Shown: positions 712 through 29,986 of the stretch, piece after piece
Layout of the letters: every line of letters starts with the position of its first letter
How positions within the stretch are numbered: position 1 is the stretch's first letter
Source of the DNA: a virus
DNA: 31,889 nucleotides
Reading direction: 5' to 3' (one strand)
IMG/VR virus record: IMGVR_UViG_3300043437_000549
Location: 1-31,889 of that record
Position numbers and translations under genes: made by a program
Notes under the pieces: model-generated
Databases searched by the model: none
The model's input: only the letters and a program-made list of their open reading frames with translations
Told to the model about the DNA's origin: nothing

Positions 712-1155
712 TTACTTTAAAGCATCTATCAAAGCCAATTTAATTGCGTTTGATAATACAGTTTGTTTAAATGGAACTTCTTCATTAATTTCAAGCATCA
801 TAGCATTTGTAGATGTTTTATAAGTTCCAACACCTTCCATTATTCTAATTCCGTTTATTACTTTAACTCTAATTTCAGTTATCTTATTTTGAATAGCAAA
901 ACCAGCAATTCTAAATGTGTTTTCAGGTAATCCAATATAAGTTATTTCAACAAATATAGGTGAACCGTCTTGACATATATCAAAACCTTTATCCTGTAAT
1001 AAATCTTCGGTAATTTGTTTTATACCGAATAATACCGATCTATTTTCAATAGATTTCATTTCAGTTTTATTATAAACCGAATCAACTTTTACACATTGTC
1101 CGAATGAAAACAATGGAAGGAATAGTAACCCAAATAATAAACTTTTAATTGTCAT
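712..1155 (-). CDS. Small secreted protein, last gene of the envelope cassette
   Basis: A 147-residue protein with a clear Sec signal peptide (MTIKSLLFGLLFLPLFSFG) and probable cleavage before Gln-20, the usual Bacteroidota pattern. Gln directly before Cys-21 makes a lipobox unlikely. The mature part has two Cys (21 and 61), a stretch of alternating beta residues (FVEITYIG.., KITEIRVKVING) and a C-terminal helix (SNAIKLALIDAL). This tail loosely resembles the last helix of CsgG-type proteins, so it could be a small periplasmic relative or partner of the CsgG-like protein encoded at 4212-4925; that is only a guess. Its start overlaps the end of the lectin gene by 11 bases, so the two are probably co-translated. 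Confidence 0.75.
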   Translation of the reverse strand: MTIKSLLFGLLFLPLFSFGQCVKVDSVYNKTEMKSIENRSVLFGIKQITEDLLQDKGFDICQDGSPIFVEITYIGLPENTFRIAGFAIQNKITEIRVKVINGIRIMEGVGTYKTSTNAMMLEINEEVPFKQTVLSNAIKLALIDALK

Positions 1156-2800
1156 AGCCTGTTCTTAATATATAAAAATTAGTTACACCCCCATTTGTTA
1201 ATGGTGATGCCGTAGTTGTTTGTACTCCTGGAAATGTTGTTCTTAAATCCGTTGTCCCTAACCTAATTGTTGAATGTTCAGTTTGTGTGTATATTCTATA
1301 ATTAGGTATTGACCAAGTTGAACCTCTACTTTTCTTTATTTGTAAATAAATATCTGAAACTGAAAATTTGTTATCAGTATTTATATCATATCTAAAATAA
1401 TCTGCACTTACTATTGTTCTTTTACTGAGAATTAAGTTATTATTATCAGATAGATTAGTTCTTTGTGGTGCTGGTATAGATAATGTATCCAAAACTATTC
1501 TCCATTCAATAGATGGATTAGAAGCTCTTAATATTGAATAATCTCCACTATTATTTGTTAAGTATGTAGTATCTAAACTCCAACTACCACTTGTCATTAT
1601 ATAATCAAACTCTAATACGTAGTTTAACATTGATGAGTTTGGTAAGTCATTCCATCTACCACCACTAACAAACTGAGCATAATCTTCTGTTCCTGAGTTA
1701 TTTGGTTCGCCTGGATTCCAATTAGAATAAGGATACACACCATATCTGTAAGCATTAAACATATAACTTCTATTAACTTCATCATCTGTCCAAACAACAT
1801 TTGATACTTGAAATGAACCTAACCTAGCATTAGCATAAGTACCATCACCCATATTGGTATTACACTTAGAGGCGAATGTATAATATAATTGAGAAGGATA
1901 TTCTCTTACATAAGATAAAGATGCGAAATTAGTTCCATTTAAATAACCCTTTAATTGAGTTCCTGAGTGTGTTAAACATATATAATTCCATTGATTTAAT
2001 GTTATTGTTGTACTTACACTTCGTAACCCTGTTCCACTCCAAGTTCCACATCTTAATGTTCCTGTTGAACCTGATACATTTGTTATTTCTATTTGAGAAT
2101 CATACCAATTAGCATCAACTATCGGAGAACCTTGTTCTGATATTAAAACACCTGCATCTGTTGGATATACCCATAACATTAAACTAACTACACCAGAATT
2201 AAAATAACTTCCTAAGTTTTCAGTCATCATATATTGGGTTGAACCATTAAATGACATATATCTACCTGATGTTGCTGTATATGATGGGTTACTGAATAAA
2301 GTAGCATTTGTTCCTGCGATAGTATTCCTAACTAAGGTAGGTGATGTTGTTTTGTATGAGTTAGTATCGGCAATATCATAATTAGCGACTAAATTTCTTG
2401 TAACAGGTAATTCAGTCCATCTAAAACCCCCTAAAGGTTCTGAAAAGAAATATCCACTTGTTTTATCTTGATAATATCCAAACCATCCTGAAGGCCATGT
2501 TCCAAATACAAATGTATTTTCAGCGGCATTAGACATAGTTACTAAGTGTCCACCCATACTTTCACAAGCAGCTTTAGCACCTGTCCAAGTATTAGTTGTT
2601 GTTGAACGATAGTATGAGTGTCCATTATAGTTTGTTTGAGATGTAAACCCTGTAAGAGCTGATGTTGTTCTTTTCCAAAGTTGTACTCTAATATTAGGAA
2701 CTCCAACATTATTTATACCAAATACTCTACCTGTTTGAGAAAAGTTCTGACTTTTAACAACTGAGGATAATAATAATAAAAATAATAATATCTTTCTCAT
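1145..2800 (-). CDS. Secreted lectin: LamG domain nested in a C-type lectin domain, with dockerin-like C-terminal module
   Basis: A 551-residue exported protein. Residues 1-17 are a signal peptide, with Gln-18 at +1. Residues about 22-45 start a carboxypeptidase-regulatory/SpaA-like beta-sandwich (GRVFG..VPNIRVQLWK) that resumes at about 403-438 (GSWSLDTTYLTNNSGDY). Between these lies a C-type lectin domain: first half 57-130 (NGHSYY, WTGAKAACESMGGHLVTM, FRWTE), second half about 355-400 with the sugar/Ca2+ motifs WNPGEPNN and RWNDLP. EPN is the mannose-type motif and WND the second calcium motif. The two lectin halves are separated by a LamG/concanavalin-like domain (136-354; NLVANYDIADTNSY, RYMSFNGSTQYM). 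Residues 470-490 hold one dockerin/EF-hand-like motif (DINTDNKFSVSDIY). Likely role is carbohydrate binding at the cell surface. The start ATG overlaps the upstream stop by 4 bases. Confidence 0.85.
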   Translation of the reverse strand: MRKILLFLLLLSSVVKSQNFSQTGRVFGINNVGVPNIRVQLWKRTTSALTGFTSQTNYNGHSYYRSTTTNTWTGAKAACESMGGHLVTMSNAAENTFVFGTWPSGWFGYYQDKTSGYFFSEPLGGFRWTELPVTRNLVANYDIADTNSYKTTSPTLVRNTIAGTNATLFSNPSYTATSGRYMSFNGSTQYMMTENLGSYFNSGVVSLMLWVYPTDAGVLISEQGSPIVDANWYDSQIEITNVSGSTGTLRCGTWSGTGLRSVSTTITLNQWNYICLTHSGTQLKGYLNGTNFASLSYVREYPSQLYYTFASKCNTNMGDGTYANARLGSFQVSNVVWTDDEVNRSYMFNAYRYGVYPYSNWNPGEPNNSGTEDYAQFVSGGRWNDLPNSSMLNYVLEFDYIMTSGSWSLDTTYLTNNSGDYSILRASNPSIEWRIVLDTLSIPAPQRTNLSDNNNLILSKRTIVSADYFRYDINTDNKFSVSDIYLQIKKSRGSTWSIPNYRIYTQTEHSTIRLGTTDLRTTFPGVQTTTASPLTNGGVTNFYILRTGYDN

Positions 2801-4047
2801 AACGTTAATTTAGCTCCAAATAGTATTTGATAATTTACTAATTGTTCTGTTACCGAGTATGTTGTTCCTCCTGTTAATCCAAATCTAAAAGCCTTTGTTA
2901 TTTTATAATTCACATTTAAGAATGGTAATAATAAAGGTTTTGTTTGGAATACACTTTCAGTATAATATTTCATATACGGAACATATACCGCTGCTAATAT
3001 AAATATCGCGTCAATATTTTTAGTTAATTGTCCTTTATACATTCCACCACCAATCGCTACTAATGTTGTTAATGGTTCTTTATTTAATGTCCCATACATT
3101 CCCCCAACACCATATAATCCTGTTACTTTTTTAACATTGTCTATACGAATATAAACCAATGTATTACTAAAACTATTAGGTAATATTGAAATACTATTTG
3201 AAACTAAATCAATATGTTTTCTAGCGGTTTTTTGTGTAATCCAAGATTTAAATACAGATATGTTACCTACTTTAGCATTAACAGTAAAATCAATAGCAAC
3301 ACCTAAAGAACGTTTTTTATCTCCCGTTATCTTAATAAAACTTGTTGTTACTTTAGCATCTTGTGCCGCATCAGCTGCTCGTTGCATACCAACAATATCA
3401 CCTGTAAGCATAATGGCTGGTTTATCTTGTTTTGCTGTTGCCCTACTACTTGATCTAGTTGTAGATTGAGAAGTTTGTTTTTGTTCCTCTTGTTTAGCCT
3501 CTTCTTGTTTTTGCTCATCAGTTTTCTTTTCTTCAGGTTTAGATGTATTGTTACCATCACTACCACCAGAACTACTAGAACTACCTGTTGCGGTAGAACC
3601 ACCTGAAACACTATTAGCTACACCTGAAACAGAATTAGTTGCAGTTGAAGCTGCTGTGGATGCTGTATTTGACGCTACATCTGTTATTGATGTGAGCATT
3701 GAACTCAACGATACGACATTATTAATAACGTTATTAGATACATTTAATACATTTGCGGTGATAGTTTGAATACCAATTTGTGCACAAGGATTTCCAACAC
3801 CATAGTTGTTATAAACATCATTAGCCCACACATCAAATGAACCATTTTGTAATTCAGTTGGTGTAAATGTTTTAACTTGTCCATAGTAATTCATTACGAT
3901 AGGTAAGTTACCATTTAAATCGGATACTGTGATGTTTTTAACTTCTTTTGTACAAGGATCTACGTAGGAGTATGAGAAGGATTGGGCTTTTACACCCAAT
4001 CCAATCATAACAAGAAATAAAATCAAGAGTGTTTTAAACCCTTTCAT
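2797..4047 (-). CDS. Probable outer-membrane beta-barrel protein with Ser/Glu/Lys-rich linker
   Basis: A 416-residue exported protein: signal peptide MKGFKTLLILFLVMIGLGVKA with Gln at +1, then an N-terminal domain of about 100 residues with two Cys (YVDPCTKEV, GNPCAQIG). Next come an Ala/Thr/Asn stretch, a poly-Ser/Gly segment and a charged linker rich in Glu, Lys and Gln (about 150-200). The last 180 residues are amphipathic beta strands with Gly/Tyr turns (YGVGGMYGTL, AIGGGMYKGQL, AFRFGLTGGTTY), as in small outer-membrane barrels. The low-complexity linker could cross the periplasm or peptidoglycan. In the cassette it follows the CsgG-like pore and a small TM protein. The barrel assignment is by residue pattern only. 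Overlaps of 14 bases upstream and 4 bases downstream indicate one operon. Confidence 0.8.
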   Translation of the reverse strand: MKGFKTLLILFLVMIGLGVKAQSFSYSYVDPCTKEVKNITVSDLNGNLPIVMNYYGQVKTFTPTELQNGSFDVWANDVYNNYGVGNPCAQIGIQTITANVLNVSNNVINNVVSLSSMLTSITDVASNTASTAASTATNSVSGVANSVSGGSTATGSSSSSGGSDGNNTSKPEEKKTDEQKQEEAKQEEQKQTSQSTTRSSSRATAKQDKPAIMLTGDIVGMQRAADAAQDAKVTTSFIKITGDKKRSLGVAIDFTVNAKVGNISVFKSWITQKTARKHIDLVSNSISILPNSFSNTLVYIRIDNVKKVTGLYGVGGMYGTLNKEPLTTLVAIGGGMYKGQLTKNIDAIFILAAVYVPYMKYYTESVFQTKPLLLPFLNVNYKITKAFRFGLTGGTTYSVTEQLVNYQILFGAKLTL

Positions 4048-4231
4048 AAAACCCCCCTTTCACATCATAATATATGTTGTCAATCGGAGTATCTACAAAT
4101 GGAAATACATCTACACTATATATGTGTTTAATTTCAATTATTACAAATAAAGTTGTGGTTAAAATAAAAACGACATATAGGTATTTAAGGAAGGTTAGTA
4201 GTTCATTGAACTTATTTTTCAAATATTCCAT
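4034..4231 (-). CDS. 65-aa single-pass membrane protein
   Basis: A short protein with an N-terminal amphipathic segment (MEYLKNKFNELLTFLKYL), one strong transmembrane helix (YVVFILTTTLFVIIEI) and a tail of about 30 residues rich in Asp, Val and Tyr that is likely outside the cytoplasm. It overlaps the CsgG-like gene by 20 bases and the beta-barrel gene by 14 bases, the same packing as the rest of the cassette, which supports it as a real gene. It could be an inner-membrane anchor or accessory of the export system. No family recognised. Confidence 0.65.
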   Translation of the reverse strand: MEYLKNKFNELLTFLKYLYVVFILTTTLFVIIEIKHIYSVDVFPFVDTPIDNIYYDVKGGFYERV

Positions 4232-4925
4232 CTTTAATCATTTTTGATACTACCCTAGAACAAGCTGTTTCTAAGGATTTTCTTGTCGAAATACCAACAG
4301 TTGACTGTGCGAATTTCATGTCAAGAGATTTCAAAAATGATTGACCATATTGGGTTGCTTCACCCATACCAGAACCTACTCTAATTTGTCCAGATTCAGC
4401 ATCTACAAATCTTATCTGTAAACCTAATCTTGTAGTTACTTCTAACTGCTTTTTACCTGTCGTATAGGTTTCTTGTTCATCTACTGAGAAGTCATACACT
4501 TCAATGTAAACAAAATACTTTGCAAGTTTAATTTTACCTTTACCATCTAATTTGTTTTCAGTAAAACCTTTAGCGCTTGCTTGGAATTGTTTAACCATTT
4601 TAAGTTTGATTTCTTCTTTATCTTCAGTAAACTCAAATCTGTTTGTACCTTCTAAGTAATCTAAAGCAATATTTGTAACACCTAATCCTACGTTTTTTTC
4701 TTTAAGAATTGGATACGAATTAAGGACGTTATCACTAATGCCGATTGAAAGAACTTGGATTGGGATTTGTTTCCCATCATAATCACTTACTACTTGTATT
4801 GATTGCTTCTTTTCAAAATCAGCCGTGTATTTTTCTGTTCTAGTTGTTCCACAACCAAACATCATAACAGCCCCTAATAGGACTGCTATGAAGTTGATCA
4901 TGCTTTGTTGGTTTATAATCTTCAT
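4212..4925 (-). CDS. CsgG-like outer-membrane secretion lipoprotein
   Basis: A 237-residue lipoprotein: hydrophobic signal segment ending in MMFGC, with Cys-25 as the lipidation site; ATG at residue 9 is a shorter alternative start. The mature part follows the CsgG layout: an N-terminal strand (QIPIQVLSIGIS), a helix plus GVTNIALDYLEGTNRFEF (the 'AL..L...GRF.v' signature), a central AKYFVYIEVYDF, a long hairpin region and the strand LQIRFVDAESGQIRVGSG matching the 'LRLVDxxTGEV' signature, then a C-terminal helix (TRKSLETACSRVV). CsgG forms the nonameric outer-membrane pore of curli (type VIII) export. Csg-type genes have been described in marine T4-like pelagimyophages, so a phage copy has precedent. 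Its substrate here is unknown; the other secreted proteins of the cassette are candidates. Confidence 0.8.
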   Translation of the reverse strand: MKIINQQSMINFIAVLLGAVMMFGCGTTRTEKYTADFEKKQSIQVVSDYDGKQIPIQVLSIGISDNVLNSYPILKEKNVGLGVTNIALDYLEGTNRFEFTEDKEEIKLKMVKQFQASAKGFTENKLDGKGKIKLAKYFVYIEVYDFSVDEQETYTTGKKQLEVTTRLGLQIRFVDAESGQIRVGSGMGEATQYGQSFLKSLDMKFAQSTVGISTRKSLETACSRVVSKMIKDGIFEK

Positions 4926-4960
4926 AAAATTCTTTGTTGGTTTTCGTTATTAGTTTTGTA

Positions 4961-5302
4961 TTACCAAGGCGCTTCTTCCTTTGGCTCTTCTTTTTTCTTT
5001 TCTTCTTTTACTGGTGCTGCTTTTTCTATAACTCTTTCTTTAATTATAGTTGTATTTCCACCACCATTATTCTGTTGTTTTTGTTCATTATTGTTTGACA
5101 AATTAATAACAACAGGAGCTGCTGCCGGAGCTGGAGCCACTTGTTCTGTTTTAGTTTCAGCATTATCTTCTGAATGTCCGTTAAAAAATGTTGTTGTAAA
5201 CCAAGTACCTGCTCCAAGTATTGCGGTTGATAAAGTACCAATGATAGTCTTTTTAAGACCACCCCAAGTACCATCATTTGTGTTTTCTGTTTCCTCTACC
5301 AT
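4961..5302 (-). CDS. Small membrane-anchored protein with charged, Pro-rich C-terminal tail
   Basis: A 113-residue protein: polar N-terminus, a hydrophobic helix around residues 15-38 (LKKTIIGTLSTAILGAGTWFTTTFF), then a low-complexity tail: Ala/Pro (APAPAAAPVV), Asn/Gln, then Lys/Glu/Pro ending in EAPW. The tail is probably disordered. The topology resembles single-pass linker proteins that span between membrane and wall; a spanin or export accessory role is possible but unsupported. It lies 30 bases after the T9SS cargo gene and 35 bases before the CsgG-like gene, in the same orientation. A T4-late-like TATAAATA lies 11 bases upstream of its ATG. Confidence 0.7.
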   Translation of the reverse strand: MVEETENTNDGTWGGLKKTIIGTLSTAILGAGTWFTTTFFNGHSEDNAETKTEQVAPAPAAAPVVINLSNNNEQKQQNNGGGNTTIIKERVIEKAAPVKEEKKKEEPKEEAPW

Positions 5303-5313
5303 AATATTTTTTA

Positions 5314-5321
5314 TATTTATA
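5314..5321 (-). promoter_or_regulatory. TATAAATA box (T4 late promoter-like)
   Basis: On the - strand this reads TATAAATA, the T4 late-promoter -10 sequence recognised by gp55, ending 11 bases before the ATG of the gene at 4961-5302. A gp55-like sigma factor is encoded in this window. In DNA this AT-rich the match could be chance. Confidence 0.3.
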
Positions 5322-5332
5322 TGTTTATTCTA

Positions 5333-7216
5333 TTACATAAATACGCTGTTAATTACTTTTGTGCTAGCAATTATCTTACCATCACACTCCATAACAGCAA
5401 GGTATGCACTTGGAGGTAAAGAACCTAAATTAGCTGTGTATCTGTATTCTCCTTTTGGCATTTTACCACTAGTTATCTCAGCTACTTTATTACCCTTTAA
5501 ATCAACGAAATATATTGATGTCATACTATCATCAGGAATATTAAATTGAACTGCTACGATACCTGAAGCTGGATTAGGGTAAACCATAATATCGATTTTA
5601 CCATTTAAACTAACATCAGTAAATTTAGTTTTAAATACCTCAACTCTACCATCAGTAGGTCTAATACTTAAATCTCTTGCTATTTCATTACCAACAAACT
5701 TACGAGTTACATATAATGGTGATCCTGTCCATTCGTCTTTAGGTTTTTTAGCGATGAATTGTAATACTACCACTTCTTGTCCATCACTAATTTTATTTTT
5801 TTCACTCATATCAACTCCACCCCACTCAACTTCGTTGTTGTTAGCGTTAGTGAATGACATCCAATTAGAAGCAGCTCCTTTCGAAGCTACTCCTTTGAAT
5901 TCTAATAAATCTTTGTCATATTTTAATGATAATTGTACTGCTCCTAATGTTTGTCCGTTAGTCAATACTTTTACAGGGATATTAACTAAGTTACCTTCTT
6001 CAACATTTAATGTAGGTAAGTTAATTTCCATTTCATTTAATTGTGCATAGTATTCTGTTGTTTGATCTATAATGAAATTAGGTGCATTTAATGGGTTAGT
6101 TATTTTGATAGGTGCTAATCTAGCCATATTGAAACCTGTTTCATTTACGTCACCTGTTGCTAATACATATACTGTAATTGAATCAACACCTGTAACAATA
6201 GTGTATGAGTAATTAGCTGTTCCTGGAATATCTAATGAGTGGTTAGTTAAACTATCGTTTGTGATTGTGTTATATTGAACATCTGTGAAGAATCTAACAT
6301 CAGGGGTTGTAAACTTGTTAAATCTACCAGCAATTCTATTAAAGATTGTGTAAACGTCTGAAATAGATATGTTACCTGAATTGTTTGGATCTGATGAATG
6401 GAAATCAAAACCTTTTGGATTTTCAATTCCTAATACAAATCTATTAACTTTTTGAGCGTCTGCTGTTGTTACAACATTACCAAGATTTAAAGTATCACCT
6501 TGAACTTCAATCTTACAAGTCCAATATGTAGTATCTACGATAGGGCTAAATCCAAACTTACCATTTACGTCAGTTGTATCTACATTAACTAATGTCCATT
6601 TACCACCTGATTTAGGTTGTTTCCATAAACCCACTAATAATTTTTTAGTGTATGAACCAGTTACGTTTTTAAATGTTCCTGCGAAATTGATAGAAGGTCT
6701 AACAAATATACCACCACCATTAAATCTAGTTAAGGTTGTATCTTTACCAGCATTTGTAGAAGCGATTGTTGGGTATGTGTTATCAAAAGCCAAAGCTGTA
6801 ATTCCTGTCAAATATTGGAATGTGGTTGGTGTTGAATGTTTAAAGTTAATATTAAATAATTCACCTGACGCATAAGTGTAGTTAAGATTTGAACCATCAT
6901 ATACTGTCGATATTGTAATTGTTCCTTTGTTTACATAAAATTGTAAATAAGAATCATTACTATCAGGGATAAGTAATCTAACTGAAGGATCTGTAAATGC
7001 TACCGTATCGTAAGTAATTTTAAATTGTAATGCGGTAATTTTACTTGAAGTTGTGTTATTATAGCAAAGTTTTACATCTGTTTGGTTAGCTATTGAAGAT
7101 GAAACCGTGTAATTTGGTTTAATAATGATTGAGTTCCCATTCGGTGTGGGACATGTTTGGGCGAATGAAATGACAGAAAGGCATAGCATCCCCAAAATTG
7201 AAAGGATTTTTTTCAT
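5333..7216 (-). CDS. Secreted cohesin/dockerin-like protein with T9SS type A sorting domain
   Basis: A 627-residue exported protein, first gene of the cassette. Domains in order: signal peptide 1-19 (SVISFA, Gln-20 at +1); cohesin-like beta-sandwich about 37-160 (ITALQFKITYDTVAF..); carboxypeptidase-regulatory-like sandwich 176-240 (LLVGLWKQ, DTTDVNGKFGF); dockerin-like module about 250-358 (DPNNSGNISISDVYTIFNRIAG, ATGDVNETG); second cohesin-like domain 400-528 (LGAVQLSLKYDKDLLEFKGV, ISDGQEVVVLQF); and a C-terminal Por/T9SS type A sorting domain 543-627 (VYPNPASG, YFVDLKGNKV, PPSAYLAVMECDGK). Type IX secretion is known only in Bacteroidota relatives, so the host exporter would be needed. Expected location is the host cell surface. 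It shares modules with the lectin at 1145-2800. Domain order is clear; which partner the cohesin-like domains bind is unknown. Confidence 0.85.
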   Translation of the reverse strand: MKKILSILGMLCLSVISFAQTCPTPNGNSIIIKPNYTVSSSIANQTDVKLCYNNTTSSKITALQFKITYDTVAFTDPSVRLLIPDSNDSYLQFYVNKGTITISTVYDGSNLNYTYASGELFNINFKHSTPTTFQYLTGITALAFDNTYPTIASTNAGKDTTLTRFNGGGIFVRPSINFAGTFKNVTGSYTKKLLVGLWKQPKSGGKWTLVNVDTTDVNGKFGFSPIVDTTYWTCKIEVQGDTLNLGNVVTTADAQKVNRFVLGIENPKGFDFHSSDPNNSGNISISDVYTIFNRIAGRFNKFTTPDVRFFTDVQYNTITNDSLTNHSLDIPGTANYSYTIVTGVDSITVYVLATGDVNETGFNMARLAPIKITNPLNAPNFIIDQTTEYYAQLNEMEINLPTLNVEEGNLVNIPVKVLTNGQTLGAVQLSLKYDKDLLEFKGVASKGAASNWMSFTNANNNEVEWGGVDMSEKNKISDGQEVVVLQFIAKKPKDEWTGSPLYVTRKFVGNEIARDLSIRPTDGRVEVFKTKFTDVSLNGKIDIMVYPNPASGIVAVQFNIPDDSMTSIYFVDLKGNKVAEITSGKMPKGEYRYTANLGSLPPSAYLAVMECDGKIIASTKVINSVFM

Positions 7217-7287: not shown

Positions 7288-7947
7288 TTATTGTTCATAT
7301 GGAATACGATTCATTCTAACCGCATAACCACCATCACCCCAATTAGTAACTTTTAATTTTTGATTATTATCGTATAATAAAAATGTCATGTTATCATAAC
7401 GATTAGGATCAAGACTAGGTATATTATATGTAATTGTTATTGTAAAACCATCATTATTAGGATTAACATTAACGTCTTTAATTACATACTCTAAACTAGT
7501 TTTATGTATGTCAGATATATAACTACACTTATACAACCTACTATCTTTAATATTATCAGAACCATTTGATGTCCAAACAAAATATGTTTTACTTTTAACT
7601 CTTGTATGGAATGTAAGTTTCCATATTCCAACCCAAGGCCTATCCGGATTGTATTGTTTAGCCTCTTCAATAGAATCTTGAGGTATTTTTATATTTTCAA
7701 TATCTTTAATATCGACATAATTTTTTGGTTTAGTGGTAAAATAACCATCAACACTACGAGTTAAATCTGATGATTTTTCTGATGGTAATATCTCTTCAGG
7801 TCTTTTACAAGATATCTCACCGGTGGTTAATAATGTACATAATAAAACGGCTTTCATTAAATCTTTCATACCTTCATTTACCTCATTTTCATTAATATTC
7901 ATCAATTGCTTGATTCTTTTAATTTCGTTTAGTAGTTTTTTATCCAT
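7288..7947 (-). CDS. Putative phage lipoprotein with N-terminal amphipathic tag
   Basis: A 219-residue protein of unknown function. Residues 1-20 (MDKKLLNEIKRIKQLMNINE) form an amphipathic helix ending in Ile-Asn-Glu, resembling leader helices on internal virion proteins of T4-like phages. Residues 27-47 (MKDLMKAVLL..ISC) then look like a Bacteroidota lipoprotein signal, followed by a typical charged region (CKRPEE). A start at the internal ATG (7867-7869) would make this a plain lipoprotein; the annotated start has a TATTTATT box 3 bases upstream. The C-terminal half is beta-rich (WVGIWKLTFHTRV, TFLLYDNNQKLKV), perhaps a lipocalin-like or META-like fold. It is separated by 71 bases from the next - strand gene. 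Confidence 0.7.
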   Translation of the reverse strand: MDKKLLNEIKRIKQLMNINENEVNEGMKDLMKAVLLCTLLTTGEISCKRPEEILPSEKSSDLTRSVDGYFTTKPKNYVDIKDIENIKIPQDSIEEAKQYNPDRPWVGIWKLTFHTRVKSKTYFVWTSNGSDNIKDSRLYKCSYISDIHKTSLEYVIKDVNVNPNNDGFTITITYNIPSLDPNRYDNMTFLLYDNNQKLKVTNWGDGGYAVRMNRIPYEQ

Positions 7948-8109: not shown

Positions 8110-8895
8110 ATGAGCGGAAAAGCACAACCAAAAAACAGCGTATTAGACGCAATCTTGAAGCAGTATGAAAGCAACAAGGCAAAACCAAGAAAAGAAGTAG
8201 ATTTAACTAAATACTTCACTACAATGTTACCAAAAGGTAAACTCACAGACAAAAAGAAATTCAGAATTATTCCAGCAGAACCAGGTCAATCACCATTCGT
8301 AGAAGTATGGTTTCACAACGTACAAATTAACGGAGAATGGAAAAAATTGTATTGCCCTGAGAAAAATGCAGGTGATCCTTGTCCATTCTGTGAAATCGCA
8401 TCTGAATTAGACAAATCAGGTTCTAAAGAAGATAAAGATTTGGCTAAAACTTACAAACCTAAAAAATTCTATGTTGTAAAAGGTATTGAAAGAGGTAAAG
8501 AAGATGAAGGTGTTAAGTTTTGGAGATTCCCACACAATTACAAAGGTGCTGGTGTTTTAGACAAAATGATTGCAGTATTTTCAGAAAAAGGGGACATCTC
8601 TGACCCTAAAGAAGGTAGAGATTTAATCATCAACATCGGTAAAGATGATAGAGGTAATTCAGTTGTAAGTTCAATCATTCACGATGATAGAGAGCCATTA
8701 GGAACTGAAGATCAAATCGCTGAATGGACATCTGATACTATGACTTGGGAAGATGTATTCAGTAAGAGAGATTACGATTACTTGTCAAAAGTAGCTAAAG
8801 GTGAAAATCCATATGAGAAGAAAGATACTTCAGCAGCTTCAGCTTCAAATCAAACAGAAGATGAAACTACAATGGATGATGAACAACCATTTTAA
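8110..8895 (+). CDS. 32: gp32-like single-stranded DNA-binding protein
   Basis: A 261-residue T4 gp32-type protein that coats ssDNA in replication, recombination and repair. The zinc site is intact: His-69, Cys-82, Cys-91 and Cys-94 (H-x12-C-x8-C-x2-C, including DPCPFC), very close to the T4 pattern (H64, C77, C87, C90). The N-terminal basic segment (residues 1-30) corresponds to the cooperativity domain. The C-terminal 25 residues are Ser/Ala/Thr/Asp-rich and end in MDDEQPF, resembling the acidic DDxxPF tip of bacterial SSB that recruits partner proteins. The neighbours are UvsX and other replication genes. A hairpin terminator follows directly. Start chosen at the only suitable ATG, just after an A/T-rich leader. 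Confidence 0.92.
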   Translation: MSGKAQPKNSVLDAILKQYESNKAKPRKEVDLTKYFTTMLPKGKLTDKKKFRIIPAEPGQSPFVEVWFHNVQINGEWKKLYCPEKNAGDPCPFCEIASELDKSGSKEDKDLAKTYKPKKFYVVKGIERGKEDEGVKFWRFPHNYKGAGVLDKMIAVFSEKGDISDPKEGRDLIINIGKDDRGNSVVSSIIHDDREPLGTEDQIAEWTSDTMTWEDVFSKRDYDYLSKVAKGENPYEKKDTSAASASNQTEDETTMDDEQPF

Positions 8896-14948: not shown

Positions 14949-15313
14949 TTAGATTTTACAAAACTATCTAAGATATTAATATATAATTTTTCTCTTATTG
15001 GGACAATTAATTTAGTTCCATCATCTGAGAAAGTTAAATCGAATTGTGCTTCATATCTACCTTCTTTTTTGGTATCATTAGCACTCCATTTATAAATTAT
15101 ATAATATTCTATTGTTTGGTTTGTATTAGCTGCAATAATATTAGCTTCTTTATTAGCGACAATTAATTTATTGGTATTCACATCACGCATTGAAAATGTA
15201 ATTGATGCGTATTCTAACTTATCATTTAATTTATGATAATCAAATCTACCATCTTTAACTAACGCTAAGGTAAGAATTGGTAATGTACTATTTTTTGTTA
15301 TAAAGAAATCCAT
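14945..15313 (-). CDS. BppU-like baseplate/tail protein
   Basis: A 122-residue beta-rich protein: STLPILTLALVKDGRFDYHK, ASITFSMRDVNTNKLIV, IEYYIIYKWSANDTKKEGRYEAQFDLTF and IVPIREKLYINILDSF. The order 'variation on input, membrane-like strand, polymer W..eDT...G.Y.a.f.v' matches the N-terminal domain of phage upper baseplate (BppU) proteins, which join receptor-binding proteins to the tail. It follows the giant fibre gene with a 1-base stop/start overlap (TAATG), so it may be stoichiometrically linked to the fibre. Family call by pattern, moderately sure. Confidence 0.65.
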   Translation of the reverse strand: MDFFITKNSTLPILTLALVKDGRFDYHKLNDKLEYASITFSMRDVNTNKLIVANKEANIIAANTNQTIEYYIIYKWSANDTKKEGRYEAQFDLTFSDDGTKLIVPIREKLYINILDSFVKSN

Positions 15314-18300
15314 TATTTTATATATATTTGGTTATTAGTTGAACATTTATATAGTGTACCTGATGGTGCTGAATCTATTTGTGTTTGATTTGGAATACTA
15401 TTTACAATTAAAAATCCATCACATATTGTTAAATTATTAACATATGTCGTATCTGGTCTATTAGTTGTAATATTAGAACCAAATACAAATGTATTACCAT
15501 AATTAGTAGTATTATTAATACCACCACCAATTACTGACCATTGACTACAAATAGTGTTATCACAACCACCAAGTATAGAAGAATAATAAATATAATCAGT
15601 ATTATTATTAATAGTATTTGATCTACCACCAAGTACCGAAGAACTACCAATGGTATTACCTATAAAATTATCATAACCCGAACCTATAAAATCAGCATAA
15701 CCACAAGCTTTATTATTACAACCAGCTACTACACCTGAATATTGTCCTTGACCCGTTATAGTGTTTAATCCACCACCACCAATGAATGAATAAGCATTAT
15801 CTATCGTATTTCCAGTTCCACCAACAATAGCCGAATTGTTTGAAAGTGCTGTAATATTATTATTATAACCACCACCTACAACTGAACAATCCGCATTAAA
15901 TATTGTATTTGATTTACCACCACTTATAGTAGAAAAATCACCCACAACGGAATTACAATAACCACCACCTATAGTTCCATAACTCTGACCGACATAATTT
16001 TTATATCCATTACCAATAAAAGAATAAGAAGCATCTATGGTATTTGATTTACCGCCAACAATTGTTGAATAATACGGTAATGGTGATATCGAGTCACTCC
16101 ATATATAATTATTAGAACCACCAATAATTGACACATTTTCTACACGGAGAATTGTATTATTATTACCACCACCTACAAATGAATAAGAACCATTTGTTGT
16201 ATTTCCACTTCCACCTACAATAACCGACTTACTTGAAGATGCTATAATAGTATTATTCACACCACCACCAATAACCGAGCAATCTGAAGATGATAAAATA
16301 ATATTTTGATAACCATTACCGATAAATGAATAATCACCACAAGTTGTATTAGAATAACCACCATTAATTGATGAATATTGAGCTTTAGCGCAATTTAATT
16401 TACCACTTAATATACCTGAATATCCACCGGATGTTGTATTATTTTTACCACCACCTACTATATCTAATAAACCTGATGTTCTATTACATTCACCACCTAA
16501 GATGGCTGTTCTATAACCATTAGTATAGTTACGATAACCACCACCAATAACTGTTTGATAAGTATTACTTTCAGTAACATTTAAATAACCACCACCAATA
16601 AATGAACAACAACCTTTAGATGTATTACTTACACCACCACCAACGACTGAATATTCACCACATGTTGTATTATTACTACCACCACCAATAAATGAATAAT
16701 CAGAATCAGGAGTAGTTTTATTAGTATCACCACCAACAATAGATGACCTATCACCACATACTATATTGTATTGACCACCACCTATAAATGTTCCAAAATT
16801 AAGTGTTGTATTTTTAACACCACCACCAATTGTACTCACATCAAAGTTAGCACAATTATTACAACCACCACCTATAAATGAATATTTACTTCTATAAATA
16901 CAATTCACTTGACCACCACCAATAAAACTACATTCTGCGGGTGTACTACTAGTACCAAGAATACAATTGTTAATACCACCACCAATAAAAGTATAATTAG
17001 CATAACTATTAATTTCATTATTTTCACCACCAACTATACTTGAATAATTAGTATTAGTGTTAATTTGGTTAGAACAACCACCAACTATGTTTGAAAATCC
17101 ACCATTATTCACATTACTATTACCACCAACTATGTTTGAATATGATATAATTTGAGTGCCAGTACCAACCACATTTCCGCTACCACCACCTATAAATGAA
17201 CAAGCTGCGCAACTTATGGCATTACTTATACCACCACCAACTACACCATAATCACTTGCATATACTATTGAATTATTTCTACCACCACTTATTGTTGAAT
17301 AGTTACTTTCAGCTGTATTATTATTACTTCTTCTTACTGAAGAACCAGTACCTGTTCCTAATACAATTACAGGATCAAGTGATGTTGTATTAACCCATTG
17401 AATACCATTAGAGGTTGAACTTAATACTTGTCCATTAGTACCTGATGAGTTATTAGAATCATATAATTTAGATTGAATATCTAAACAATTAACAAATGTT
17501 GTTCCTGATTTATCTGTTGTAATATTTGAACCTAATATAAATGTATTGTTATGTAATGATTTGTTATTTTGACCACCAGCTATAAATGAAAATCTTGAAT
17601 TAGTGATTGTATTACCACTACCAGCACCAATAAATGAATAACATCCATTAGGGTTAGTAATTGTATTTTTACAACCACCACCGATAGATGAGAAATAACT
17701 TGATGCTGTATTTGATAAACCACCAACAACTACCGAAAATTGCTCACCGGCATAATTATTATAACCGCTACCGATAAATGTATAGTTAGCGTATGCAAAA
17801 TTATTGTAACCACCACTTACAGTTGAATAACTACCACGTACTTTATTACATCTACCACCACTTAACGAACTATATTGCCCAAGAATAGAGGTATTTTTTT
17901 CTCCACCACCAATAAAATTACAATACCCATCAATAGTATTACAAGTACCACCACCAATAAAGTTTCCAGTAAATCCTGTATTAAATGTTATTGTATTATA
18001 ACTACCTGAACCTATGAAATTAATTGAACCTCCAGATATTATATTTCTGAAACCACCCCCAATAAAATTTTCACTATACCCTGATGTTAGTATAGTGTTA
18101 TATCGACCATTACCAATAAAACTAAATGAGCTACCTGATATTGTATTATATACACCATTAACAATTGCTGAGTAATCACCTAAAACTTGATTAGAATCAC
18201 CATTACCAACAAACTCAAAACCATTTAACGTATTACCGGCAATATTATTCACACCACCAACCACAACTGAACAATTACCATAAGCGGTATTATTTAAACC

Positions 18301-21300
18301 ACCACCTACAAATGAATATAAACCTGATGTCGTATTTCCTGGAGGTGATGATAGTTTAACCCATTTAATACCTGTTGGTGTATTACTTAAAACATAACCA
18401 GATAAACCACAACTATTGGTACTATCATAAATAGAAGTTTTAACGTCTAAGTTTTCTACGAATGTTGTATTTGATTTATCTGCGGTTAAATTAGAACCAA
18501 TAATAAATGAACTAAATTGGTTATTTGTGTTATTTCCAACTCCACCAAGAATACCTGAATACATTCCTGATGCGCTATTATTTCTACCACCACCTACAAA
18601 TGTGAAAATACAACTTGTTCTATTACCAGAACCATTTACAATTGCCGAACAAGCCCCATTAGTAATATTAGAAACACCACCACCAATAAATGAACCTGAA
18701 CCATTAGCTATGTTTCCAAAACCACCTACTACAATACCACAATTACCGGCTACACAATTATTATTACCGCTTCCAATAAATGAATAAGAACCTGATGTCG
18801 TATTTGCTCTTCCACCTGTAATTGTTGAATATAATCCTGTTGAACAAATACAATTACCATTAGCAATTCTATAAGTTGAACCAACAATAGTTCCAAATTG
18901 TTGAATAACACTACTACCTGTTAGTGTGATAATTGTTGTTGTACCACCACCACTCATATTAACCCATCTAACACCTGTTGGTGTTGAGCTTAATACTTGA
19001 CCTGATAAACCTGTACTATTTTCACTATCGTATATATTTGTTTTAATGTCTAAGTTTTCTACATATGTTGTGTTTATTGTCGATGCTGTTAAGTTAGAAC
19101 CTAATATGAATGTATTAGTTAAATTAGTGCAGTTATTTTGCCCACCAGCTATGAATGAACAAGATGATGATAATTTGTTTAATCTACCACCCGCAATTAC
19201 CGATGCAATACCTGTTAATTCATTACTTTGCCCAGCTCCGATAAATGAATCGTTACTATTAGTTATTGTATTACTTATACCAGCACCAATAAACGATTCA
19301 AAACAATTAGACCCCTGAATTGTATTTTGTGTACCACCACCAATTACATTATAACAACTATTAGTTGATATTAAGTTGTAGAAACCTGAACCTATAAACG
19401 ATGATTTTGACCCTGAAGATATTCCATTACTATACCCACCACTTATTGTTGAGCAAGTCCCATATACTCCGTTACATTGACCACCTAAAGCTGTTGAATA
19501 AACACCTGTTGCTGTATTACCCACACCAACTCTAACGGCTGAACCGAATGTTGCTCCTGACGTAAATAATTGAGGTGGTAAATCTATTGTTGTTTGAGAT
19601 GTTTGTGTTGTCGCACTTACCCATTTAATACCACTAGGTGTTGTAGATAAAACATATCCTGTCGTACCTGTTGTATTTGTAGAATCATAGATATGTGTTT
19701 TAACATCTAAGTTCTCTACAAATGTTGTATTTGTAGTTGTGGCTGTTAAATTAGAGCCTAATATAAATGTGTTACCATAAGTAGAACAGTTATTTTGACC
19801 ACCTAAAATAGCTGACCATCCACCTTCTGATGTATTATTACAACCACCACCTATAAAGATATAATCACCATTTTTTGCGTAGTTACAATAACCACCAACA
19901 ACTATGGATTTACCATAATCACCGCTTTGTGTTATACAGTTATTAGAACCACCACCTATAAATGAACATTGTGAATTACTATAATTATATCTACCAGCCA
20001 CAAATGAATATAAACCATCAGCGGTATTATCACTATCTTTTCTTACTGAAGAACCAATAGAATTACCTGATATAATGACAGCATCGGATACACCACCAGT
20101 ATTATCAATCCATTTTACACCACTAACAGTTGAACTTAATATTTGTCCATTATTTCCTGAACTATTTAAACAATCATATAATTTAGATTCAATATCTAAA
20201 TTATTTACAAATGTTGTATTACTTGTTGTTGCTGTTAAATTAGAACCTATTAAAAATGTGTTAGTATATTTACTATAATTATTTACACCACCCAATATAC
20301 CTGAATTAGATGAAACAAGGGTGTTTTTACATCCACCATCTATCACAGAACCAGAACCATTAATATAGTTACAACAACCACCACCGATTGATGCCACACA
20401 ACTAGCTAAAATTGTATTACATCTACCACCACCTATTACCGCTTCACATGATCTTACATTACAAATACTATTTAAGAAACCACCTGATATAGTTGTGTTT
20501 TTAGCAAAAGATGTATTACAAAAACCACCAGATATTACCGTACCGGTTTCTAACGCTTCATTATGTTCACCACCACCAATAAATGATTTATAACCACTAA
20601 CAGTATTAGCCCAACCACCAGCAATAGTTCCCCAAGTAGCTGTTTCACCAATATAATTAGATTGACCACCACCTATGAATGTACAGTTAGCACTAGAATT
20701 TATTAAATTAGATTTACCACCACCTATAAATGAATATTGGTTATAATCATAAATCGCATTACCATAGCCACCAACAATAGATGACCAAAAATTATTGGGC
20801 CTAATTGAATTAACTTCACCACCACCTATAAATGATCTATCACCATAATTTGAATTATTCATACCCCCAACAACCGCACTAAAAAAACCAAAGGCTGAAT
20901 TATTCATACCACCACCGACAAACTCACCAGCATTTGGATCACAACCGGCAGTGTTATTTATACCACCTACAACAACAGAATAATTACCACAAGATGTATT
21001 TCCACTACCATTACCAACAAAAGAGTTTGTTCCAATAATTGTGTTATTAGTACCCGCCAATACACTATTAACTCTTAAATTGGCGTAATTTGTTATGTTG
21101 ATTGTACTTGCTGTTATACTACTATTTGTATAACCTAATCTAAACTCTTTATTTGTTTCACTCCATATAAATGCTGTGTCGCCTGTTAAACCTCTATCGA
21201 TAACAAAACCAGCATCATTTACAGGTGTTGTTGTTCCTGAAGCTAAAAGAATTATTGGGTTAGTAACGGTTAAACTTCTTTGATTAATTGTTGTTGCTGT

Positions 21301-22947
21301 TCCATTAATTGTTAAATTACCTGTTATGACAACACTACCAGATATTGTACCACCTGATTTACTAAACTTATCATTAACTTTTGTTGAACTACTTAAAACA
21401 CTATCAATGGGTGTCCAATAACCTTCATTACTTATTACATAACCTTCACCAGGGGATGTAATACCATTTAAATCAAATAATTGTCCTGCTAGATTTAAGT
21501 TTTTAATATATGTACGATCACTATTTGATGCTGTAATTTCATCACCAATAATTGTGACATTATTATAACCATTACTAATATTACTATTACCGATTATAAT
21601 GACATCTGTTGTATTACCAAATGTTGAACATGCTGTGTTATTACAACCACCTAAAATAATTGAATTATCTGAATAACTTATCTGATTACCACAACCACCT
21701 ACAATTATAGAAAGATTACCATTAGCTCCGTTACCATAACCACCACCAATAAATGTTCCATCACAATTTGATGCATTTCCACAACCACCTACAATCGTTG
21801 AATTATTAACATTATTTAATTGATGACATTGACCTCCACCAATAAAATTATAATTTCCATTACTTTCACTTGATGATGTTATAATATTTTGAGAACCAGC
21901 AACAATTGTCGAGCTTTGACCTGCAACATTATTACAAAAACCACCACCGATTAAACTTCTATGTGCGTAATCTGTGATACTATTTCTTTCACCACCACCG
22001 ATAAAATTACATCCGTTATTTGATGACTGACCATTACTAGTAATAGAGTTTGTACCACCACCCACAATTATTGATGATGGGCTATCACTAATAGTGTTAT
22101 ATTGACCACCACCTATTTTAGAACAATCAGAATTACTAATTTTATTTAAATCACCACCATCAACACCACCTGCACGACTAGTTGATATTGTATTACTAAT
22201 ACCCCCTTGTATTGAACCATAACAACCTAAAGCTGAATTACCAATACCACCACCAATAAAGTTATAATTATCACAAGCTCTGTTATTTTCACCACCACCG
22301 ATAAAAGATGAACCTTCAGCCCCTAATAAACCAGGACCTCCACCAGCACCTACAATATTACCTTGACCACCTGAATTACACCAAGCAAGACCATCGGCAG
22401 TTGCTACCAAGTATTGTCCCGCAATACCTGCTGAACCTGCATTATCGTATATAAAATCTCTAATATTTAAAGATTCAACAAAGGTTGTATTTGTTGTTGT
22501 AGCGGTTATATTACTACCTAAAATAACTGAATTAGTTTTATCTGTATAGTTATTTACACCACCAACAATAGTTGAACAATTACCGATTGCATTATTATTA
22601 CTACCACTTCTTACCGTTGAGTTATTACCTGTCCCTTGTTGAAATATTGCACTACAACTAAGATTATTTAATATGTTTTGAGTATTACTTGAATAACTAT
22701 TAAATGTTGTAATATCTAATTTTGTATCAATATAATTTTTAGTATCTGATGTATAACTATAAAACAAACTATTACTAATTGTACTAGCGGTATAACCATT
22801 AAAATTAATCGCTGTTTTAAAATCATCAACTGTTATTTTATTAGATGTATTACCAGATATGCTGTATAATAACAATAAATCTTCTTCAGGGTTTACCGAT
22901 GAGGGGTTTATTGGGTTTAAATCTTTTAATATTCTTCCTTGTGCCAT
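15313..22947 (-). CDS. Giant repetitive tail fibre / adhesin (2544 aa)
   Basis: A very long fibre protein. Residues 1-95 (MAQGRILKDLNPINP..) are a virion-attachment type N-terminus. Nearly all the rest is a repeat of about 15-18 residues of the form SxIGGGxxNxxxGxxS, on the order of a hundred copies, resembling the left-handed beta-roll head repeats of YadA-type trimeric adhesins. Eight 'neck' modules (GSNxTxxxxNTTFVxNLDI, often followed by YDS..GxxGxVLSxTPxGxxWV) interrupt the heads near 22460, 21500, 20190, 19700, 19050, 18450, 17480 and 15430. Near 21050-21380 a tail-fibre module typical of marine T4-like phages occurs (FVIDRGLTGDTAFIWSE). The end (SGTLYKCSTNNQIYI) resembles fibre tips. 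Likely role is host receptor binding as a trimer. No S74 peptidase chaperone is seen. Confidence 0.85.
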   Translation of the reverse strand: MAQGRILKDLNPINPSSVNPEEDLLLLYSISGNTSNKITVDDFKTAINFNGYTASTISNSLFYSYTSDTKNYIDTKLDITTFNSYSSNTQNILNNLSCSAIFQQGTGNNSTVRSGSNNNAIGNCSTIVGGVNNYTDKTNSVILGSNITATTTNTTFVESLNIRDFIYDNAGSAGIAGQYLVATADGLAWCNSGGQGNIVGAGGGPGLLGAEGSSFIGGGENNRACDNYNFIGGGIGNSALGCYGSIQGGISNTISTSRAGGVDGGDLNKISNSDCSKIGGGQYNTISDSPSSIIVGGGTNSITSNGQSSNNGCNFIGGGERNSITDYAHRSLIGGGFCNNVAGQSSTIVAGSQNIITSSSESNGNYNFIGGGQCHQLNNVNNSTIVGGCGNASNCDGTFIGGGYGNGANGNLSIIVGGCGNQISYSDNSIILGGCNNTACSTFGNTTDVIIIGNSNISNGYNNVTIIGDEITASNSDRTYIKNLNLAGQLFDLNGITSPGEGYVISNEGYWTPIDSVLSSSTKVNDKFSKSGGTISGSVVITGNLTINGTATTINQRSLTVTNPIILLASGTTTPVNDAGFVIDRGLTGDTAFIWSETNKEFRLGYTNSSITASTINITNYANLRVNSVLAGTNNTIIGTNSFVGNGSGNTSCGNYSVVVGGINNTAGCDPNAGEFVGGGMNNSAFGFFSAVVGGMNNSNYGDRSFIGGGEVNSIRPNNFWSSIVGGYGNAIYDYNQYSFIGGGKSNLINSSANCTFIGGGQSNYIGETATWGTIAGGWANTVSGYKSFIGGGEHNEALETGTVISGGFCNTSFAKNTTISGGFLNSICNVRSCEAVIGGGRCNTILASCVASIGGGCCNYINGSGSVIDGGCKNTLVSSNSGILGGVNNYSKYTNTFLIGSNLTATTSNTTFVNNLDIESKLYDCLNSSGNNGQILSSTVSGVKWIDNTGGVSDAVIISGNSIGSSVRKDSDNTADGLYSFVAGRYNYSNSQCSFIGGGSNNCITQSGDYGKSIVVGGYCNYAKNGDYIFIGGGCNNTSEGGWSAILGGQNNCSTYGNTFILGSNLTATTTNTTFVENLDVKTHIYDSTNTTGTTGYVLSTTPSGIKWVSATTQTSQTTIDLPPQLFTSGATFGSAVRVGVGNTATGVYSTALGGQCNGVYGTCSTISGGYSNGISSGSKSSFIGSGFYNLISTNSCYNVIGGGTQNTIQGSNCFESFIGAGISNTITNSNDSFIGAGQSNELTGIASVIAGGRLNKLSSSCSFIAGGQNNCTNLTNTFILGSNLTASTINTTYVENLDIKTNIYDSENSTGLSGQVLSSTPTGVRWVNMSGGGTTTIITLTGSSVIQQFGTIVGSTYRIANGNCICSTGLYSTITGGRANTTSGSYSFIGSGNNNCVAGNCGIVVGGFGNIANGSGSFIGGGVSNITNGACSAIVNGSGNRTSCIFTFVGGGRNNSASGMYSGILGGVGNNTNNQFSSFIIGSNLTADKSNTTFVENLDVKTSIYDSTNSCGLSGYVLSNTPTGIKWVKLSSPPGNTTSGLYSFVGGGLNNTAYGNCSVVVGGVNNIAGNTLNGFEFVGNGDSNQVLGDYSAIVNGVYNTISGSSFSFIGNGRYNTILTSGYSENFIGGGFRNIISGGSINFIGSGSYNTITFNTGFTGNFIGGGTCNTIDGYCNFIGGGEKNTSILGQYSSLSGGRCNKVRGSYSTVSGGYNNFAYANYTFIGSGYNNYAGEQFSVVVGGLSNTASSYFSSIGGGCKNTITNPNGCYSFIGAGSGNTITNSRFSFIAGGQNNKSLHNNTFILGSNITTDKSGTTFVNCLDIQSKLYDSNNSSGTNGQVLSSTSNGIQWVNTTSLDPVIVLGTGTGSSVRRSNNNTAESNYSTISGGRNNSIVYASDYGVVGGGISNAISCAACSFIGGGSGNVVGTGTQIISYSNIVGGNSNVNNGGFSNIVGGCSNQINTNTNYSSIVGGENNEINSYANYTFIGGGINNCILGTSSTPAECSFIGGGQVNCIYRSKYSFIGGGCNNCANFDVSTIGGGVKNTTLNFGTFIGGGQYNIVCGDRSSIVGGDTNKTTPDSDYSFIGGGSNNTTCGEYSVVGGGVSNTSKGCCSFIGGGYLNVTESNTYQTVIGGGYRNYTNGYRTAILGGECNRTSGLLDIVGGGKNNTTSGGYSGILSGKLNCAKAQYSSINGGYSNTTCGDYSFIGNGYQNIILSSSDCSVIGGGVNNTIIASSSKSVIVGGSGNTTNGSYSFVGGGNNNTILRVENVSIIGGSNNYIWSDSISPLPYYSTIVGGKSNTIDASYSFIGNGYKNYVGQSYGTIGGGYCNSVVGDFSTISGGKSNTIFNADCSVVGGGYNNNITALSNNSAIVGGTGNTIDNAYSFIGGGGLNTITGQGQYSGVVAGCNNKACGYADFIGSGYDNFIGNTIGSSSVLGGRSNTINNNTDYIYYSSILGGCDNTICSQWSVIGGGINNTTNYGNTFVFGSNITTNRPDTTYVNNLTICDGFLIVNSIPNQTQIDSAPSGTLYKCSTNNQIYIK
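15490..22640 (-). repeat. Tandem short repeats within the tail fibre gene
   Basis: The coding repeat leaves a DNA signature on the + strand: CCACCACC(A/T)ATAAATGAA-like units recur every 45-60 bases, with diverged spacers. The units differ enough that they are not simple slippage repeats, but they offer many sites for recombination and copy-number change within the gene. Confidence 0.85.
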
Positions 22948-25984: not shown

Positions 25985-26272
25985 TTATAATTTCTCTAAT
26001 GATACGGTTATGTTTTTATTACCATACTTTCTGAACAATTCTAAATCTTTTTGAGCTTCTTCTTCTGTTTTATATATTTTAGGTTTTGAATCAAACTCAA
26101 TGTACCTACCTTTAGGTATATAAACTGTTGACCCATCTTTATAATAACCATAAACCATTTCACCTGTATGTGGCTCACCTGGTTTTTTTTCGCGTTTAAG
26201 TACTATAATATATGATTCACTTAAACCCCCTTTAATCATTTCTAATTGTTCTTCAGTAATTCTAATTTTCAT
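25985..26272 (-). CDS. Small protein with N-terminal capsid-targeting-like tag
   Basis: A 95-residue protein beginning MKIRITEEQLEMIKGGLSE, an amphipathic helix with Ile-Thr-Glu and Leu-Ser-Glu sites. The rest is a compact alpha/beta stretch (SYIIVLKREKKPGEP, VYGYYKDGSTVYIPKGRYIEF, KTEEEAQKDLELFRKYGNKNITVSLEKL). Similar 'MKIRITE.QL' leaders occur on varied phage proteins; in T4, cleavage after (L/I)xE by the prohead protease marks capsid-targeted internal proteins. So a packaged internal protein is possible. First gene of the 26272-14945 transcript run, with a TATTTATA box 3 bases upstream. Confidence 0.65.
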   Translation of the reverse strand: MKIRITEEQLEMIKGGLSESYIIVLKREKKPGEPHTGEMVYGYYKDGSTVYIPKGRYIEFDSKPKIYKTEEEAQKDLELFRKYGNKNITVSLEKL

Positions 26273-29948: not shown

Positions 29949-29986
29949 CGATACTTAGATTATGATTAAAAATGGTCTAAGTATCG
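29949..29986 (+). promoter_or_regulatory. Perfect inverted repeat enclosing the start codon of the two-domain glycosyltransferase
   Basis: CGATACTTAGA (29949-29959) and TCTAAGTATCG (29976-29986) are an exact 11-base inverted repeat. The 16-base loop contains the ATG at 29962-29964. The right arm is coding. In RNA it would hold the start codon in a hairpin loop and could limit ribosome entry; in DNA it could be an operator. It also includes the TACTTAG box (29952-29958), 3 bases before the ATG. Confidence 0.55.

Follow-up and report, generated by a model that had tools for sequence, protein, structure and literature searches.

A candidate phage-encoded scaffoldin cassette proposed to display a swappable lectin through the type IX secretion system of Bacteroidota hosts

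Six genes form a strictly linked cassette in many large viruses of aquatic Bacteroidota. The model that best accounts for them, held with slightly less than even confidence, is that the type IX secretion system (T9SS) of the host would display a scaffoldin-like protein, which would in turn dock a lectin chosen by the phage, probably for adsorption control. The broader interpretation as a viral "scaffoldin" is tentative. It describes a full extracellular assembly of cohesins and X-dockerins that would commandeer the host T9SS, displays a swappable lectin and has its own envelope assembly of CsgG-fold proteins, as a system common to T4-like lineages with portals only ~20% identical. The architecture is rated as categorically new and as built from known parts, with its function proposed from sequence. 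No report of phage cohesin/dockerin systems or of T9SS-displayed lectin systems was found in the open-access literature.

The whole stretch of DNA analysed, referred to here as the window, is a linear virus record of 31,889 bases. It is assigned to a T4-like phage because it also encodes a gp32-like SSB, a UvsX-like recombinase, a helicase C-terminus and a head-tail adaptor; the host group of this phage is Bacteroidota. An earlier note on this DNA described seven co-directional genes at 712-7216, and all of these open reading frames are present there on the minus strand (Table 1). The cassette is flanked by the helicase C-terminus (3-572) on one side and the gp32-like SSB (8110-8895) on the other. 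Its genes are tightly packed, with four neighbouring pairs overlapping by 4-20 nt and two pairs spaced by ~30-35 nt. Promoter and terminator scans gave signals no higher than those of shuffled sequences. The 65-aa product has the transmembrane segment ascribed to it in the earlier note, but its gene is not part of the cassette core, being found in 11 loci that all belong to the window's own clade. The 219-aa gene upstream of the cassette shows 33% identity beyond the nearest contigs and probably lies outside the system. The products of 7288-7947 and 25985-26272 carry the tag-like N-termini EIKRIKQLMNINEN and MKIRITEEQLEMIKGGLSE and are otherwise unrelated. Elsewhere in the window, positions 15313-22947 encode a 2544-aa protein that consists largely of GGGxN-type repeats, has no Pfam match and adjoins neck genes. 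A two-domain glycosyltransferase is encoded at 29962-31548, with further sugar-transferase-like genes, recognised by eye, close by.

Table 1. Genes and protein modules of the cassette and its upstream neighbour, in positions of the window.
Feature	Position	Strand	Description or evidence
p147	712..1155	minus	second, shorter CsgG-like-fold secreted protein (147 aa)
Lectin protein, 551 aa	1145..2800	minus	signal peptide, X-module, C-type lectin, LamG, dockerin, beta-tail
Lectin X-module C-half, dockerin and beta-tail	1145..1642	minus	Ca loop DINTDNKFSVSD; conserved module alignment
LamG (concanavalin-like), nested in C-type lectin	1772..2248	minus	Laminin_G_3, 1e-10
Barrel protein	2797..4047	minus	outer-membrane barrel-like; signal peptide, linker, C-terminal barrel-like domain
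65-aa single-TM protein	4034..4231	minus	TM 14-32; non-core, window clade only
CsgG-like-fold protein, 237 aa	4212..4925	minus	AF2 and Foldseek; most conserved member
p113 (113 aa)	4961..5302	minus	small conserved protein; alignment
Scaffoldin-like T9SS cargo, 627 aa	5333..7216	minus	Pfam, AF2, Foldseek
Scaffoldin T9SS C-terminal sorting domain	5357..5584	minus	aa 545-620; Por_Secre_tail
Scaffoldin cohesin 2	5597..6028	minus	~aa 397-540; Pfam Cohesin 397-493
Scaffoldin X-module, dockerin and beta-tail	6122..6685	minus	~aa 178-365
Scaffoldin cohesin 1	6701..7135	minus	~aa 28-172; second Pfam Cohesin stretch, AF2 beta-sandwich
219-aa upstream gene	7288..7947	minus	some window-clade loci only (6 loci)

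The scaffoldin-like protein consists of a signal peptide, a first cohesin, a transthyretin-like X-module, a dockerin, a beta-tail, a second cohesin and a T9SS sorting tail. It had previously been read as T9SS cargo with cohesin-like domains, and Pfam bears this out by recognising Cohesin (1.4e-8, two stretches) and Por_Secre_tail (3.6e-6), the latter being the T9SS sorting signal of Bacteroidota proteins. Both families are present in 30 of 31 relatives, and a signal peptide is likewise called in 30/31 by a simple hydrophobicity rule. Searched against the PDB, the family profile finds solved structures of cohesins and of T9SS tails. Foldseek aligns the AF2 model (pLDDT 79.7) with cohesins over ~148 residues (TMt 0.71-0.76) and also with multi-module cellulosome scaffoldins. 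In the near-identical record G032, two cohesin matches lie in the same frame. In the module between the two cohesins, residues D253, D276, N278 and D287 are invariant in the family alignment. Dockerin_1 is recognised in 9/31 scaffoldins; the first repeat of the dockerin-like double repeat is degenerate, and the calcium-loop residues of the second are invariant or nearly so.

The second protein with this docking module is the lectin protein, the C-terminal 165 residues of which are homologous to the central module of the scaffoldin (hhalign E 2.8e-28). As read from sequence, its X-module is interrupted by a C-type lectin domain, which is itself interrupted by a LamG domain, and a dockerin and a beta-tail follow. 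The nested lectin had already been recognised, and Pfam places Lectin_C at residues 69-114 and Laminin_G_3 at residues 185-343 (1e-10) of the window protein. The calcium-loop pattern of the dockerin is conserved across the family. Dockerin_1 is absent from the Pfam matches reported for the lectin family, and the profile of the X-dockerin module gave only weak EF-hand and dockerin matches in the PDB. The lectin protein has a signal peptide and lacks a T9SS tail. Throughout its family, the docking module is constant while the binding domain is swapped: Lectin_C occurs in 19/32 members, LamG in 10, PA14 in three and GEVED in two. No enzyme domain is listed for either the lectin or the scaffoldin family.

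The distribution of these modules is regular in 17 carrier records, a set that includes the near-identical pair G008 and G027. Each record contains a single T9SS tail, always in the cohesin protein (17/17), and the cohesins are confined to the scaffoldin. There are exactly two X-dockerin modules per record, one in the lectin and one in the scaffoldin (17/17), and in carrier records Lectin_C is confined to the lectin protein. In cellulosomes, a cohesin binds an X-dockerin. The simplest reading of the module distribution is that the scaffoldin cohesins would dock the lectin, although X-dockerin and cohesin could instead act in cis.

The remaining core proteins are putative components of the cell envelope. 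For the 237-aa protein, a CsgG-like fold is supported with moderate confidence by its AF2 model (pLDDT 71), for which the best Foldseek match is CsgG (4uv2, E 5.9e-8, TM 0.43-0.48). PelC, LptE, YajG and other periplasmic or outer-membrane lipoproteins form a second tier of fold matches, and the best match in a viral structure library is a phage CsgG (E 9.2e-7). The profile match is weak, with Pfam CsgG recognised in 1/18 family members, and a PDB profile search with the family returned nothing useful. A lipobox is found in the window clade. The segments corresponding to the pore hairpins are charged or polar in 18/18 members and, in an alignment made by eye, shorter than in E. coli CsgG. Thus, of the CsgG-like pore proposed in the earlier note, the fold stands, whereas the pore is unsupported because these segments are short and charged. 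The 147-aa protein p147, previously described as a small secreted protein, has a signal peptide in 30/30 members and is a second CsgG-like-fold protein (hhalign against the CsgG-like family: probability 98, E 3e-13); Lipoprotein_16 matches 3/30. The assignment of an outer-membrane barrel is supported by a GxxPhixPhi beta-signal in 23/23 relatives, which all have a signal peptide as well (23/23). The N-terminal domain of this protein contains the invariant residues C32 and C88, and its linker is variable and rich in Gly, Ser and Asn. The 113-aa protein p113 had been called a small transmembrane protein, but its moderately hydrophobic N-terminal stretch falls below the transmembrane threshold used. 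Its tail appears disordered and its C-terminal Trp is invariant. Overall, signal peptides are near-universal in five core families, as called by the simple hydrophobicity rule and not by a trained predictor.

The CsgG-like fold and the Gly/Ser/Asn-rich barrel linker could be seen as traces of a divergent form of curli (type VIII) secretion, with amyloid fibres as the exported product. This is highly improbable given the short and charged barrel-forming hairpins and a gene content unlike that of the pelagiphage operon (PMC9599517). Neither CsgF nor CsgE was matched by Pfam or PHROG among the window cassette proteins or in the p147 and barrel families, and no family match to CsgA/B curlin repeats was obtained in the window cassette or the barrel family. 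A canonical curli system was rejected on the absence of the CsgF, CsgE and CsgA/B partners.

The linkage of the six families was examined by running their HMMs over fetched loci, with the scaffoldin, p113 and p147 as seeds. The loci represent the best 80 matches per scan, with related contigs counted, so the co-occurrence counts favour closer relatives. Among the matches listed, all six families are present in 35/35 loci that were seeded with the scaffoldin and span at least 18 kb. The p113-seeded loci listed contain five families in 48/48 cases and all six in 44/48. Where there is room upstream in the listed p147-seeded loci, the CsgG-like, cohesin (Coh), barrel and lectin families are found in 43/43, and p113 accompanies them in 41/43. 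Near-complete co-occurrence from three independent seeds places the linkage far above chance. After near-identical CsgG proteins were dropped, 99 non-redundant loci remained, and the cassette is co-directional in 99/99. The core order Coh-p113-CsgG-Barrel is invariant, while the positions of the lectin and p147 shift. Scattered orthologues had been named as grounds for refuting a functional module. The families instead co-occur from all three seeds, and the refutation fails because co-occurrence is near-complete and the core order is kept. Relatives counted in the viral contig collection number 206 for the 237-aa protein by its own patterns and 406 by alignment, 319 for the scaffoldin-like protein, 423 for p113 and 207 for p147. 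With 200-400 relatives per family and contigs of up to 434 kb, the system is widespread.

A T4 capsid family is matched in 22/31 carrier records and a T4 portal in 20/31, and several of the non-matching records are fragments. Across 19 carrier records, median identity is 20% for the portals versus 69% for the CsgG-like protein, and the two sets of distances correlate (r 0.51; as high in 0/2000 permutations). Judging from these sequences, either the cassette would be passed between deep lineages or unusually strong constraint would act on the CsgG-like protein. Three jumbo carriers of 344-434 kb, G006, G008 and G027 (the records of loci L034, L040 and L139), have two adjacent T4-type portal genes each, and two of the three are near-identical. 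A cellular origin of the intact cassette was considered and rejected: the single genome-collection match, L083, is a 254 kb contig inside a GTDB Bacteroidetes bin, and it is a phage contig because gp23 and a T4 portal lie on it. Cassette HMMs gave zero matches in 14 short loci that contain cellular genes of the CsgG family.

Among 50,697 phage records, the only carriers are isolates of Immutovirus immuto, the host of which is Flavobacterium sp. LMO8. In phage immuto (vB_FspM_immuto, NC_055915), gp013-gp019 represent the six families with the core order kept. Compared with the window, the lectin gene, gp013, lies at the front of the cassette. In immuto and its relatives, two genes with separate starts encode what is a single scaffoldin in the window; in immuto these are gp014 and gp015. 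The immuto annotation reads "lectin C-type domain" and "cohesin domain", and the rest are hypothetical proteins. Its cassette is located at 10.5-16.4 kb, and the annotated virion genes are found at ~81-150 kb. Virion-associated decoration or receptor-binding proteins could be envisaged, as LamG also occurs in immuto genes annotated as structural. This is very unlikely: signal peptides and a T9SS tail would take the proteins out of the cytoplasm, which is where virions are assembled, and the immuto cassette lies far from the virion genes. No match to virion families was obtained for the window cassette proteins in Pfam or PHROG, and the window cassette lies among replication genes. Virion proteins were rejected on the conserved signal peptides, the T9SS tail and the genomic position. 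The earlier view of an envelope or surface module away from virion genes is sustained by the signal peptides, the T9SS tail in 30/31, the co-occurrence and the immuto layout. Matching tail fibres to lectins as a test of receptor masking was tried and proved uninformative, because LamG occurs in both the lectin and structural genes and Lectin_C in the lectin alone.

The gene neighbourhood points to a main rival explanation. In 65/99 non-redundant loci, the cassette itself contains genes for holin-like small membrane proteins; endolysin-cluster genes flank 47/99, and one or the other is in or beside 82/99, which makes lysis a main rival. A GH19 endolysin was confirmed, with endolysin genes near many cassettes; the endolysin cluster also holds a family of 196-203 aa. 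According to this explanation, p113, a ring of CsgG-fold proteins and the barrel would span the envelope and act with holin and endolysin to disrupt the outer membrane in place of spanins, while the surface proteins would contribute by loosening the outer layer or stripping it off. A lysis role was also proposed for the phage CsgGF of Melnitz (PMC9004378). However, PHROGs recognises none of the small membrane proteins in the cassettes as holins, and the annotated holin and endolysins of immuto are located at 22-44 kb, away from the cassette. Lysis also leaves the T9SS tail, the cohesin/dockerin pair and the swapped lectins unexplained, and is considered unlikely. The holin-like and endolysin neighbours suggest that the cassette may be expressed late and in connection with the envelope. 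Two further neighbours were observed. Cluster c3 (e.g., L060:1131-1586), found near 41/99 cassettes, encodes a secreted protein of ~150 aa with a conserved HExxH-like motif and no family match. A secreted DNA/RNA non-specific endonuclease (L082:9935-10513, immuto gp012, and cluster c5) adjoins the cassette in some phages.

In the preferred model of lectin display, the host Sec pathway would export all but one of the six core proteins. The host T9SS would then carry the scaffoldin outside and attach it to the surface, as its sorting tail implies. There, the cohesins would hold the lectin by its X-dockerin end. They may also bind the X-dockerin of an adjacent scaffoldin, which would link scaffoldins into chains. 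The weakest step concerns the two CsgG-fold proteins, the barrel and p113, which probably constitute an envelope-spanning assembly that would export or anchor the lectin. The infected cell would end up coated with a glycan-binding domain that is swapped per phage lineage. The likeliest purpose would be adsorption control late in infection by masking or occupying surface glycans, which would act against superinfection and against the loss of progeny on the cell and on debris.

Superinfection exclusion, aggregation and glycan capture, the functions suggested in the earlier note, cannot be separated on the basis of sequence, and the sequences do not tell masking apart from aggregation. An adhesin function, in which infected cells would attach to neighbours or particles and in this way bring progeny to hosts, is equally compatible with a displayed lectin that cross-links, and the swapped binding domains fit changing partners. 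Such "sibling capture" was proposed for pelagiphage curli (PMC7029224, PMC9599517), but Melnitz, which carries CsgGF, showed no aggregation (PMC9004378), and this function also appears improbable. In other proteins, lectin, PA14 and LamG domains are sugar binders, and many carriers are large, as would suit the capture of glycans or nutrients to feed the long infection cycle of large phages. As neither a glycosidase nor a SusC-like transporter was recognised among the window cassette proteins, this purpose is decidedly improbable.

If the lectin-display model is correct, we know of no earlier phage system that uses cohesin-dockerin docking and the host T9SS. By implication, large phages may rebuild the outside of the infected cell with one part swapped per lineage. 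Binding domains that are exchanged while the dock stays constant could reveal which surface glycans are relevant to these phages. The model is directly testable because a cultured pair exists in Flavobacterium sp. LMO8 and phage immuto. The cohesin/X-dockerin pairing, the second CsgG-fold protein, the swapping of lectin domains and the holin-like and endolysin neighbours had all been missed in the earlier note.

The closest phage counterparts are the curli cassettes of pelagiphages and Melnitz, which likewise are phage clusters with a CsgG-like protein and exported partners (PMC7029224, PMC9004378, PMC9599517). Those of pelagimyophages are also located between replication and structural modules. 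These cassettes hold CsgF, CsgG, CsgA/B, FecR, a histidine kinase and an adenylate cyclase (PMC7029224, PMC9004378, PMC9599517). Apart from the CsgG-like element, which is the only shared part, the present cassette has none of these, and unlike them it encodes T9SS cargo, cohesins, X-dockerins, swapped lectins, a barrel-like protein and two CsgG-fold proteins. PelC, LptE and YajG belong to the same tier of CsgG-like folds; they serve cellular housekeeping or polysaccharide export and have no cassette partners.

Cellulosome scaffoldins (e.g., 4fl4, 3kcp) share the cohesin folds and the order of modules, in which a dockerin-like double repeat comes after an X-module, as well as the predicted principle of a surface-anchored scaffold with a docked binding protein. 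The present system differs in being phage-encoded, in its predicted T9SS anchoring instead of an S-layer domain, and in the predicted docking of lectin-type binding domains with no enzyme recognised. Docked plant-polysaccharide enzymes, the mark of a true cellulosome, were not found, and the X-dockerins are confined to the lectin and the scaffoldin. Each phage has one cohesin protein and one lectin partner, with two scaffoldin genes in the immuto group. The receptor-masking lipoproteins of the T5 Llp type and the superinfection exclusion proteins Imm and Sp of T4 are single small proteins. They resemble the cassette in the proposed outcome, a block of further adsorption or injection, which would here be achieved by a multi-component lectin display.
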